Position numbers and translations under genes: made by a program. From Zeus faber (taxonomy: Eukaryota; Chordata; Actinopteri; Zeiformes; Zeidae), in the NCBI GenBank assembly GCA_960531495.1, contig OY482854.1:27768426-27832425 (forward strand): a stretch of DNA of 64,000 nucleotides, read 5' to 3'. This document shows, piece by piece, positions 34,333 through 62,709 of the stretch. The notes under the pieces are model-generated. The model was not told where the DNA came from. It did not search any database and saw only the letters and a list, made by a program, of their open reading frames with translations. The number at the start of each line of letters is the position of its first letter. The first letter of the stretch is position 1.

Positions 34333-34885
34333 CTATTATTATTCGGGGTCCAGCCCTATTATTATTCTCCTTGGCATTTTTACATTTACATTTAGTCATT
34401 TAGCAGACGCTTTTATCCAAAGCGACTTACAATTATTCAAACACCGACGGACGCAGCCATCAGGAGCAATTAGGGGTTAAGTGTCTTGCTCAAGGACACT
34501 ACAGCATGCTAGCAGGAGGAGCCTGGGATCCAACCAGCAACCCTTAGATTACTTACTATGACCAGCTCTACCTCCTGAGCTACCATTCCCCATTTTTAGG
34601 GCTAAAAGTGTCTGGCCTACGACAACCGCTGGACCCACGGACATGGTTGACGTCTCGTTAGAGTCGGGACATCTTGGAAATGTCGTGGTTAAAGTTTGAT
34701 CCATGTCGATCCATAGTTGGAGCAGGAAGTAGTGAAAAACCGACTACATTTTACTGAAGGCAGCGGAACGTTCCTGCATCGCCGATACGCCAAGGTTCTA
34801 AAGCTTCCGGTCGAGCGGCGACGGGAGACGAGTTTGTCGAGTAGGCGCTTTGTGACATCATCATCCAATTTGTTATTTATGTGCA
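34333..34885. repeat. dispersed repeat, copy 2, split by a younger insertion
   Basis: It is collinear with copy 1 at 33.5 kb, but interrupted between ctccttgg and aaagtgtctggc by the element at 34,383-34,590. After removing the insert and one target duplicate, the order of blocks matches copy 1. Confidence 0.65.
34383..34590. mobile_element. SINE/LINE-tail-like insertion with 8-bp target duplication
   Basis: The 208-bp insert contains the well-known teleost phrase tagcagacgcttttatccaa followed by agcgacttac, and near its right end ctcctgagctacc. It is flanked by direct repeats CATTTTTA at 34,375-34,382 and 34,591-34,598. The phrase is common to fish SINE/LINE-derived repeats; the exact family is uncertain. 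The direct repeats show that it integrated into the older repeat around it. Confidence 0.75.
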
Positions 34886-48663: not shown

Positions 48664-48669
48664 TTTATT
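48664..48669 (-). terminator. rab28: candidate rab28 poly(A) signal AATAAA
   Basis: This is a canonical hexamer on the minus strand, about 440 bases past the CAVQ stop codon. It is the first AATAAA met after the last coding exon. No transcript evidence is available from sequence alone. Confidence 0.35.
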
Positions 48670-48861
48670 TCACACCACTGAAGAAATAATAGCTGCTAAA
48701 TTTCCAACCTACAGATCTGCAGTGGAGCATTTTCTCAGTCCTCGTTTCTAAAGCAGCATAAATACAAATACATGTCACACAAAAAGCTGAATTTGGTCCT
48801 CCCAAAAGAGAATACTGACTAGCCTTGTATCATCTCAACAGAAAGTGACTGTGTGTGCTTG

Positions 48862-49051
<190 letters not shown>

Positions 49052-49105
49052 ATAAATGGTCTTCAGGGGTGTTAAGTATAATGTTTAGTGGGCTGGAAGA
49101 TGGAA

Positions 49106-49198
49106 TCACTGCACCGCACACATGGAGCTGCGCGGGGGGTTGACCGCCCTGGCCACCGTGTCCTGAGTGTAGTTCACAATATCTGCCTTCACCACACG
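49106..49198 (-). CDS. rab28: rab28 alternative C-terminal exon 2 (ends CAVQ)
   Basis: The sequence encodes 30 residues, [19 protein letters not shown] then [11 protein letters not shown], followed by TGA. It also ends in a CAAX box (C-A-V-Q). It starts after a strong acceptor (a pyrimidine-rich stretch then GTGATTCCAG at 49,200-49,199). It is in phase with the donor at 51,598, so it can directly follow ...AEIEQSQ. It is homologous to the upstream alternative exon (RIVKAELV versus RVVKADIV), consistent with an ancient exon duplication. Vertebrate Rab28 has isoforms with these two tails (family knowledge, from memory). This exon presumably also carries the terminal 3' UTR, which runs into a large CA/GT tract about 55 bases past the stop. 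Confidence 0.93.
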
Positions 49199-49685
49199 CT
49201 GGAATCACACACAAAACAACAAGAGCAAATTAGAGGAAGTCGGGCAGTACACATTGAGAACAAATGGACTAATCTATAAGGGGGTTTGTTTTTTACTGTT
49301 GAGAACCAAGTTCCCCAACAATTTAGTTCAAAACAAGCCATGCATAATACTGCCTGGTTGGGAGACTCATGGGCAAGATTTTACCAGTTGGCCAAATTCC
49401 TAGACGTGGCGCTGAAGATACTGGTGGCACATCTGGTACCCTCACAATAGGACCAGGTTGGATCCACATAGACCACACTCAAACAGGAAGCATTTACTAA
49501 CAGGGTTGAACATAACTCATAAACCATGATTCAGGCACCCACCATATGAGGCTGTATTAACATGACAAAAAACTCTACTTCAGTCAACTCTAAGCCACAT
49601 TACAACTACCACAGTTACTATTGGGATCTACCATGGCTACTACACTTAAGGGCAGGAGACTGACTGTTTTCAAACGTACTTCCAA

Positions 49686-49781
49686 CTATTGAACAGAACA
49701 AATTTTGCTTTGCTGAGTGCTCTCTTGTCTAATGGGACCTTCATCCTGGGGGTAGTCCACCAGCTCTGCCTTCACAATCCT
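49686..49781 (-). CDS. rab28: rab28 alternative C-terminal exon 1 (ends CSVQ)
   Basis: The sequence encodes 31 residues, RIVKAELVDYPQDEG through SKICSVQ, then TAG. It replaces the hypervariable tail of Rab28 and ends in a CAAX box (C-S-V-Q). A Gln at position X fits farnesylation, and Rab28 is known to be farnesylated. The acceptor is GATGCGCAG with a poor pyrimidine tract, weaker than that of the downstream alternative exon. Six bases after the stop is a plausible donor (GAA|GTACGT at 49,679-49,678), so this may be a 102-bp cassette (49,781-49,680) that carries its own stop and splices on to the downstream exon as 3' UTR. I see no minus-strand AATAAA or ATTAAA between this stop and the next exon, which supports a cassette over a terminal exon (inference). 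Confidence 0.92.
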   Translation of the reverse strand, partial: RIVKAELVDYPQDEGPIRQESTQQSKICSVQ

Positions 49782-50454
49782 CTGCGCATCGGTCAACATA
49801 TGACACCATTGGAGACATGGAGGAGAAGGTGTTTGTAAAAGGATAAGAAAGATGGATAGATGGGTGAAGGACAAGAATGGAGGACAGGGTCATAGAACAA
49901 AAGGGATGGAAAAAAACAAATGTGAGAATCGGAATGAAAATTGAATAAAACACGGCCATTTTGGATCAGTGAACCAACCCTTCCCCCCGCCCCCATGAAG
50001 CCCTGGGTCTGTAGAGCGGGATGTTTAGTGTAGAAGAGACAACCTCGGTGGAAAAACAGGGCTTGGTTGGGCTGCCTGATTAATGAGCTGCCGAAGCCTG
50101 GTGTCAGAGCCAGTGAGTGATCAGCGGCCCCACTATCTGATCTACCAGACAGAGAACCATGATGGAGAAGGCTTCCAGGCAGATATGATCTTGTCAGAGG
50201 TCACGACCCCCATGTTTAAGCCCTCTAAACCTGACAATTGATAATGAGGCTTTCACTGGTGCACATCTAGACGCAGAGCCATGACCCCCTCCTTATCTTT
50301 ATATTCAGAAAACTATGACAGGTTGTCACTCATACTAAGGCTTCAGTTGGGGAAAAAGAGTGGGTGAGCGGACAATCTCCTGTAAAAGACAGATATGTGT
50401 CATGGTGTAATGGTTTATGCAATGAAGAAAAAATAATAATTCCTAATATCTGCC

Positions 50455-50530: not shown

Positions 50531-51598
50531 CAACTATCTGTGTCATATTTGAATTGCATTGGATAAAAAACAATCGCAGGTATTGATGTTTTTTAGGTTT
50601 TTTTTGTCTGTCCCTCTGAACTTGTTTTGACCTTTCCTCAGACTGGCACTTGGGGTCTGCCAATCCAGCCTGATTAGCCTGGATTTAAGCACTTGGCTTT
50701 ATTGAGCCAGCTATCAAGGGAGGTGATGAAGAGGAAAGGAGATTGCCGCCTTCACCAACCAGCGGTGGTTCTCAGTTTTGTTGACAGCATTGGGATCTGT
50801 GACTGGATAGGAGAGGGAGGGGCTTGAGATTGTGTCCAGTCCTTTCCTATAAAGCGCTCTCCTTTCCCTGGGGGTCCTGACCTCTGCCCTAGACTTGGGC
50901 TCATCAGCCGGTGCCCAGCCAGGGTGGCTCCAGCCGCTCATATCAGAGCCAGGATTAATGCTTCCGTGGGAGGTGACTGTGTAAATCCCACAGCTGCCAC
51001 CATGGGACAACATGGCCTGGCAGGGCAAGCGGAGACCTCATTTCAGCCTATGTCGGCGGGAGATAAACCCAATAAATCAGTGGGCAAATCCTAACCTCCT
51101 CACCCTTAAAACTGCCTACCTTTGACCCCTGGCTTCACGCACTAACGTGGTCAACGTGGCTCTATTTACAGATGGGCAGTGTCAGTGGCAGGTAGACCAT
51201 CACAGGAGTCAGACATAACAAGCTGGTGTTTACTGAACGAAAGGCTCTTTACTGAGTGTGGTGACCTCCACTGACCTCAAGAACACACTCCCTTTGACTC
51301 CCCTTTAGCGTCACTGGGTATGTTACATATTCTTTTATGGCTAGCGCTGCAGGAAACTACTGGCCTCAATTGATGATGGATTCCACAAGCATTATTATCA
51401 TTACCCCCTCCACGCCACTGGTAAAGTTAGAAAACAAAATCACCAGCAACAACAACTAATGAACCAGTGTTAAACTGACACTCGGTGATGATTTCCCCCC
51501 AAGGTTTGAGAAGACTGATAAGTTTTGTTATGGCTAGACGGAATCCAGAATTGAAGCACGTTCTGAGAAGAGACAGATTGCTAGATACGTTGGCTCAC

Positions 51599-51676
51599 CT
51601 GGGACTGCTCAATCTCAGCCTTGTTGAGCTTCACACCCAGAATCTCAGCAGCCACTCTCTGGAAACAAAGGAAAAC
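51599..51676 (-). CDS. rab28: rab28 internal exon ([14 protein letters not shown] to AEIEQSQ)
   Basis: This 78-bp, phase-0 exon encodes 26 residues: VFLCFQ, then [20 protein letters not shown]. It is helix alpha5, the last element of the G domain. I chose the acceptor CCTCAG at 51,678-51,677. A second AG, TTTGTTTCCAG, lies 18 bases into the exon, but using it would delete VFLCFQ, which is conserved in Rab28. The donor is GTGAGC. From this donor the transcript goes to one of two alternative C-terminal exons. The exon is too short and lacks an ATG, so it does not appear as an obvious open frame by itself. Confidence 0.94.
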
Positions 51677-51839: not shown

Positions 51840-51943
51840 AGAGTCCCCCGTCTTGGCCGAAACAAACTGACTGAGGAGGTTGTTCTCTTGGCAGAAGCGC
51901 TGGTGTTTGTCAGCCTTCACCGTCCTCAAATGTTCAAGGTCGA
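51840..51943 (-). CDS. rab28: rab28 internal exon (DLEHLR to SAKTGDS, G5 box)
   Basis: This 104-bp exon supplies the last two bases (TC) of the split isoleucine codon, then 34 residues from [13 protein letters not shown] to FVSAKTGDS. The acceptor is TGTTGACAG and the donor is GTGAGT. It contains the Asp of the NKxD G4 motif and the SAK G5 motif, both of which bind the guanine base. The sequence [20 protein letters not shown] is diagnostic for Rab28. The following 163-bp intron is the shortest in the gene. The open frame continues past the donor but loses all Rab similarity there (STACHN and onward), confirming the exon end. Confidence 0.96.
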
Positions 51944-62579: not shown

Positions 62580-62709
62580 TTTTGTTTCCAACCAGCGAGA
62601 CGACAGGCTGAATGTTTGACTCCTCGTTGGCCTTCTTGACCATGCTGAACCAGTCCTCCAGATTTTCAAAGCTCTGGTAGTTGCTGATGTCGTAGACAAG
62701 CAGCACACC
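62580..62709 (-). CDS. rab28: rab28 internal exon (GVLLVYDI to NK of the G4 box)
   Basis: This 130-bp exon encodes 43 residues beginning [20 protein letters not shown] and ending SLVGNK, plus the first base (A) of the next codon. The acceptor is CCGACACAG and the donor is GTAAGG. It covers the beta4 strand and helix alpha3 of the G domain and the beta5 strand leading into the G4 guanine-specificity motif NKxD. That motif is cut by the intron: N and K lie here, while the split Ile codon (A|TC) is completed and the Asp supplied by the next exon at 51,943. The mature reading NKID is intact. The segment matches vertebrate Rab28 almost residue for residue. Immediately downstream of the donor, the intron opens into a roughly 90-bp CA/GT tract at 62,463-62,552. 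Confidence 0.96.

Follow-up and report, generated by a model that had tools for sequence, protein, structure and literature searches.

The question raised by this locus is whether the 3′ end of the Zeus faber rab28 gene encodes two alternative C-terminal tails and, if so, how old the pair is, how one tail would be chosen over the other and whether the two would carry different addresses. Rab28 bears a CaaX box in place of the usual Rab geranylgeranylation motif (PMC12089063), and its loss leads to human cone-rod dystrophy (PMC11254824). Throughout, the window is the whole 64,000-nucleotide stretch of contig OY482854.1 that was analysed, positions are those of the window, and L and S denote the tails ending in CSVQ and CAVQ, respectively.

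The window holds the 3′ end of a fish rab28 gene

The gene is rab28, read from the minus strand; it has eight coding exons and is ordinary for a fish, the locus covering its 3′ end. Exons 4–6 and two tail exons (7 and 8) lie within the window, with exons 1–3 located on the same contig at C10:27,833,159-27,841,141, just outside it. Joining the exons gave open frames of 222 aa for the CSVQ form and 221 aa for the CAVQ form. The features delineated are as follows.

62580..62709, minus strand: rab28 exon 4 (HGVLLVYD...VGNK), from tblastn with a provisional human RAB28 sequence, borders read by eye; its final base belongs to the opening codon of exon 5
51840..51943, minus strand: rab28 exon 5 (ends ...KTGDS), from tblastn with splice borders read by eye
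51599..51676, minus strand: rab28 exon 6 (ends ...EQSQ, phase 0), from tblastn with splice borders read by eye
49782..49979, minus strand: a pyrimidine-rich run (about 70%) of 196 nt lacking AG, followed by the acceptor AG; a candidate distant-branch-point region
49680..49781, minus strand: L-type tail exon (exon 7), 31 codons, CSVQ; stop at 49688-49686 plus 6 nt, the exon end being inferred from the donor GAA/GTACGT at 49679
49106..49198, minus strand: S-type tail (coding part of exon 8), 30 codons plus stop, CAVQ; from tblastn, splice borders read by eye and homology to exon 7
48669..49105, minus strand: presumed shared 3′UTR (last exon), containing a CA array at 48850-49050 and an AATAAA whose first base is 48669; transcript end presumed from sequence

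Several results identify the gene. Among the best 60 of 520 PDB matches, a query consisting of the exon 4–8 protein only, with small errors, matched human Rab28 (2hxs, 3e5h) at E 1.4e-48 and the next sequence at 6e-15. A search of the genome with the provisional human RAB28 sequence gave at least 52 matches, of which the six covering the rab28 gene had 51-83% identity and the others, at least 46, had at most 46%. Among solved Rab proteins the best match is to Rab28, the complete coding gene lies at one place, and the protein has a C-terminal CaaX box. The Pfam Ras family aligned over residues 1-91 of the exon 4–8 protein, and the tail exons come after the aligned part.

Two further observations concern exon 6 and the remainder of the window. 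Exon 6 opens (window 51659-51676, minus strand) with 18 nt that encode VFLCFQ and resemble a pyrimidine tract closed by CAG. The AG inside the exon outscores 99.2% of AG sites by provisional weights; use of a second acceptor at 51,658, which is possible, would delete six codons of exon 6 in frame. A UnaL2 LINE 3′ element (window 34390-34443, minus strand, 71.3 bits) is the only Rfam match at the gathering threshold in the window. No obvious coding gene was seen in window 1-48600, the approximately 48 kb beyond the rab28 3′ end, where 2 of the 44 stop-to-stop frames of at least 130 aa were run against Pfam and gave no match. This would fit the region beside human RAB28, which we take to be gene-poor.

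Two tail exons in one phase follow a single donor

Exon 6 ends in CAG at 51,599 and is followed by gtgagc from 51,598, a donor scoring above 99.9% of 7,916 GT sites (provisional weights). The L exon is opened by AG/AGG at 49,781 and reads RIVKAELVDYPQDEGPIRQESTQQSKICSVQ up to a stop whose last base is 49,686, and the S exon is opened by CAG/CGT at 49,198, with its stop ending at 49,106. Both tails join exon 6 in phase 0. The initial annotation of this DNA had proposed two C-terminal coding exons, each with its own CaaX box (CSVQ and CAVQ), in the same phase behind the donor at 51,598; its coordinates proved right to the base and, with the borders read, both the 222- and the 221-aa frames are open. 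In the 803-Mb genome each tail has at least one match at E <= 0.001, with one listed per tail.

The window was also searched for further tails. Among 7,295 AG sites there were 60 AG-led frames of 20-40 codons ending in C-x-x-x-stop, and the result rests on the 11 that passed a loose CaaX filter. Of these 11, the frames lying between 51,598 and 49,199 are the L exon itself, a pair that open inside it, and a frame starting at 49,685, immediately past the L stop.

Both tails keep the residues of high-affinity PDE6-delta cargo

The residues before the CaaX cysteine are S-K-I-C in the L tail and S-S-M-C in the S tail, and the human tails are the same at −3 and −1. The human tails used throughout are provisional: print supports only their CaaX boxes, a size of 95 bp and a length of 30 residues (PMC3188499), and two human tail ends had no printed match in the open-licence literature. 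In PMC5512577, affinity for PDE6-delta depends on the residues one and three places before the farnesylated cysteine. INPP5E with Ile(−1)/Ser(−3) is in the low nanomolar range and GRK1 with Met/Ser at 7.2 nM, while low-affinity Rheb has Ser (−1) and Lys (−3). The Rab28 L tail is like INPP5E in its Ile(−1)/Ser(−3) pair and the S tail like GRK1 in its Met(−1)/Ser(−3) pair, so that each has the Ser at −3 and hydrophobic residue at −1 of high-affinity cargo. Serine at −3 has also been linked with ciliary cargo, although changing it to lysine did not abolish ciliary entry of two proteins (PMC9857354). PDE6D exons were found in the fish genome with a provisional human query, residues 47-150 lying in the stretch fetched, and the contact residues given in PMC5512577 (V80, E88, W90, M118, L123 and I128) are all conserved (6/6), with Glu88, which falls at a splice border, checked there.

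It had been suggested from the sequence that the two tails may differ in affinity for a prenyl-binding partner or in localisation. The tails are indeed unlike at −2 and in the spacer (SKI-C versus SSM-C; net charge −1 for L, +2 for S). At the measured determinants, however, each tail has residues of the high-affinity class, Ser(−3) with Ile or Met(−1), and a difference in affinity that would send them to different places is unlikely. Equal and high PDE6-delta affinity of both tails would be the better prediction, because both keep the high-affinity −3/−1 pair. Both Rab28 proteins should acquire a farnesyl group and travel with PDE6-delta towards cilia. A second cysteine is absent from each tail, and therefore neither has a KRAS4A-like palmitoylation site; no polybasic run was seen by eye. 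Any functional difference probably lies in the spacer, the L tail being more acidic and the S tail having a PPRSS motif kept between fish and the provisional human sequence.

The CSVQ exon: probably a cassette carrying its own stop

We infer the splicing pattern of exon 7 from the arrangement of its signals. Since a donor (GAA/GTACGT) lies 6 nt after its stop, the upstream L exon is most likely a cassette with a donor of its own, instead of a second terminal exon. When skipped, exon 6 would join exon 8 and give the 221-residue CAVQ protein; when included, exon 7 would supply its own stop and give the 222-residue CSVQ protein, and would then join exon 8, which would serve as 3′UTR. Nonsense-mediated decay is governed by a 50-55 nt rule, and it is not expected for the L mRNA because the stop lies 6 nt before the junction. 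The L donor scores 0.91, near the 1.14 of the exon 5 donor, which speaks for the cassette model; what speaks against it is that this donor is only moderate, at the 93.9th percentile of 7,916 GT sites (provisional weights).

Were the CSVQ exon instead a genuine alternative last exon, polyadenylated at a site of its own, the choice of tail would be made by competing 3′ ends. Such an exon would have its own stop, as this one does, and two AGTAAA variant poly(A) hexamers occur downstream of that stop, at 49,498 and 49,297, within the 481-nt L-S intron. This reading is nevertheless quite improbable, given the plausible donor just past the stop. Neither AATAAA nor ATTAAA occurs in the interval from the L stop to the S exon, an AATAAA being present at 48,669. 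It also sits poorly with the human forms, Rab28L with CSVQ and Rab28S with CAVQ, which are reported to differ by a 95-bp insertion (PMC3188499), a difference that fits a cassette exon carrying its own stop.

A relic that is spliced no longer in Zeus faber is very improbable. The L acceptor is the weakest of the four scored, identity to the provisional human orthologue is lower for L (16/29) than for S (24/30), and in 2020 only one isoform was known in zebrafish, that closest to RAB28S (PMC7092623). Against this, the frame, the box, Ser(−3), the acceptor AG and the donor GT of the L exon are all intact, despite a middle that has diverged widely from that of its sister exon. With the L exon intact in this fish, zebrafish work on the S-like isoform may cover one of two possible proteins.

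Two sequence elements near the tail exons were also considered. A CA array of 201 bp (48850-49050, minus strand) lies in the presumed 3′UTR, 55 nt past the CAVQ stop. CA repeats can bind splicing factors, and the array might affect the choice between the neighbouring tail exons. A single TGCATG found 335 nt after the L exon was discounted, the 16 copies on the minus strand of the window being about the number expected by chance.

A weak acceptor and a long AG-free tract precede the CSVQ exon

Acceptors were compared for exon 5, exon 6, L and S using provisional splice-site weights, which gave scores of 4.09, 7.61, −1.91 and 2.99, respectively. The AG-free zone before the L exon extends over 196 nt and is 70% pyrimidine. 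Across the window, 7,298 AG sites include just 14 preceded by a zone of this length. The two most frequent dinucleotides account for 31% of the zone before the L exon, as against 38-88% in 12 of the remaining 13. The weak acceptor and the long AG-free tract together suggest regulated inclusion, perhaps via a distant branch point, for which candidates were found from −55 to −189. Human exons preceded by zones of at least 100 nt are more often cassettes (68 of 235 versus 47 expected; PMC1431707). The L exon resembles the distant-branch-point exons described there in having a pyrimidine-rich zone longer than 100 nt upstream of a candidate alternative exon, and differs from them in that its branch point is a candidate from the sequence. 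Length of the zone is not a specific mark, as exon 4B of kras in the same genome has one of 135 nt; there the pattern is reversed, exon 4A having a zone of 16 nt. A branch-like TTGAC also lies at −12 of the L exon, so that an ordinary near branch point 12 nt from the exon stands beside the distant one, which we put forward as a suggestion.

The tail exons are probable duplicates that would predate the human–teleost split

The L and S proteins align over their full length with 13/30 identities and a global score of 58. This score was reached by none of 20,000 residue shuffles (highest 35), nor by any of 20,000 shuffles in which the CaaX box was held fixed (highest 49). When both strands of the window were scanned by ungapped score against the first 13 residues of the L exon, a RIVKAELVDYPQD-like start after AG was found only at the L exon itself (66) and the S exon (47) among 7,295 AG sites, the next best scoring 16. 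The similarity extends to the DNA, where 28 of the first 39 bases of the two exons are identical, shared codons included. The middles are unlike, the paralogue pairs over columns 14-27 summing to −4 and the orthologue pairs to 65 (fish and provisional human tails). An earlier claim that the exons are alike at their start and different in the middle is borne out by these figures.

The simplest account is that exon 7 (L) and exon 8 (S) arose by tandem duplication of one tail exon. That the tails instead became alike by convergence on shared functional needs (tail start and CaaX box), without exon duplication, is extremely improbable, for although it is mainly the two ends that match and not the middle columns, the starting bases share codons, phase and position, and no shuffle with the box fixed reaches the observed score.

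Within a species the two tails share 13/30 residues in the fish and 12/29 in the provisional human sequences, and all 10,000 column bootstraps put orthologous tails nearer to each other than paralogous tails, with the alignment made by hand. Orthologues being closer than paralogues, the tail-exon duplication would predate the human–teleost split, an age that rests on the provisional human tails. The duplication that had been proposed as old is accordingly shared with at least human, the CSVQ and CAVQ boxes being the same in human L and S. Searches of the collections genome_contigs and viral_contigs confirmed no Rab28 relatives among 81 and 8 pattern matches, respectively, as expected for an animal gene.

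Taken jointly, the best explanation, which we consider highly probable, is an eight-exon rab28 gene with a tail duplication older than the split, exon 7 as a cassette and both tails as PDE6-delta cargo. A more specific reading, possible and held tentatively, is that the pre-split duplicates have been held to one cilium-delivery code (INPP5E-type S-x-I-C and GRK1-type S-x-M-C) with their middles free to diverge, inclusion of the CSVQ exon being set by a distant branch point. If this were true, Rab28 splicing would swap the spacer, leaving the address label unchanged. With the −3/−1 signal common to both tails, the broad proposal of different localisation comes down to a straightforward assay of peptide binding.

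Comparison with known systems

The names Rab28S and Rab28L are seldom used in the open-licence literature, where RAB28 appears together with 'homologous exons' only in the preprint PMC9882654; in the main text of Abascal 2015 (PMC4465641) RAB28 does not occur. In the preprint, of 2023, Rab28 is placed among nine other genes with C-terminal alternative splicing, of which only CDC42 is said to behave like KRAS (PMC9882654). CDC42 is comparable to Rab28 as a prenylated GTPase with alternative C-terminal forms (PMC9882654 and PMC10883850), and differs in that its two forms are reported to differ in localisation. In mouse striatum, long reads gave two Rab28 isoforms (PMC11188239), which were left out of account because their tails are unspecified.

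A structural parallel was found within the same genome. The fish kras gene (C6:16,978,600-16,988,500) has tandem exons 4A (CVLM) and 4B (CTLM) whose starts are approximately 1.7 kb apart. The two KRAS exon tails carry different membrane anchors, polybasic versus cysteine. Like KRAS 4A/4B, the rab28 exons are homologous coding exons lying in tandem at the 3′ end of a small-GTPase gene, each with a CaaX box (order 4A then 4B in KRAS; PMC9882654), and they follow one donor in the same phase. The KRAS exons encode part of the G domain, whereas the Rab28 tails come after the Pfam Ras part; the zone before fish kras 4A is 16 nt, as against 196 nt before the Rab28 L exon. In contrast to KRAS, no different membrane-targeting signals were found in the Rab28 tails, which have no extra upstream cysteine, share one −3/−1 class and have no polybasic run.

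The two-tail arrangement is already known in humans and is old and real, not new; two human RAB28 isoforms have been in the literature since 1996, from Brauers et al. The present analysis makes modest additions, namely the fish copy, the cassette reading and the shared PDE6-delta signal. Fish and human share the gene itself, alternative endings of approximately 30 residues (L with CSVQ, S with CAVQ) and an exon-sized insertion, and in the fish the CSVQ exon lies upstream of the CAVQ exon. They differ in the size of the inserted segment, which is 95 bp in human and a predicted 102 bp, with 31 codons, in the fish exon.
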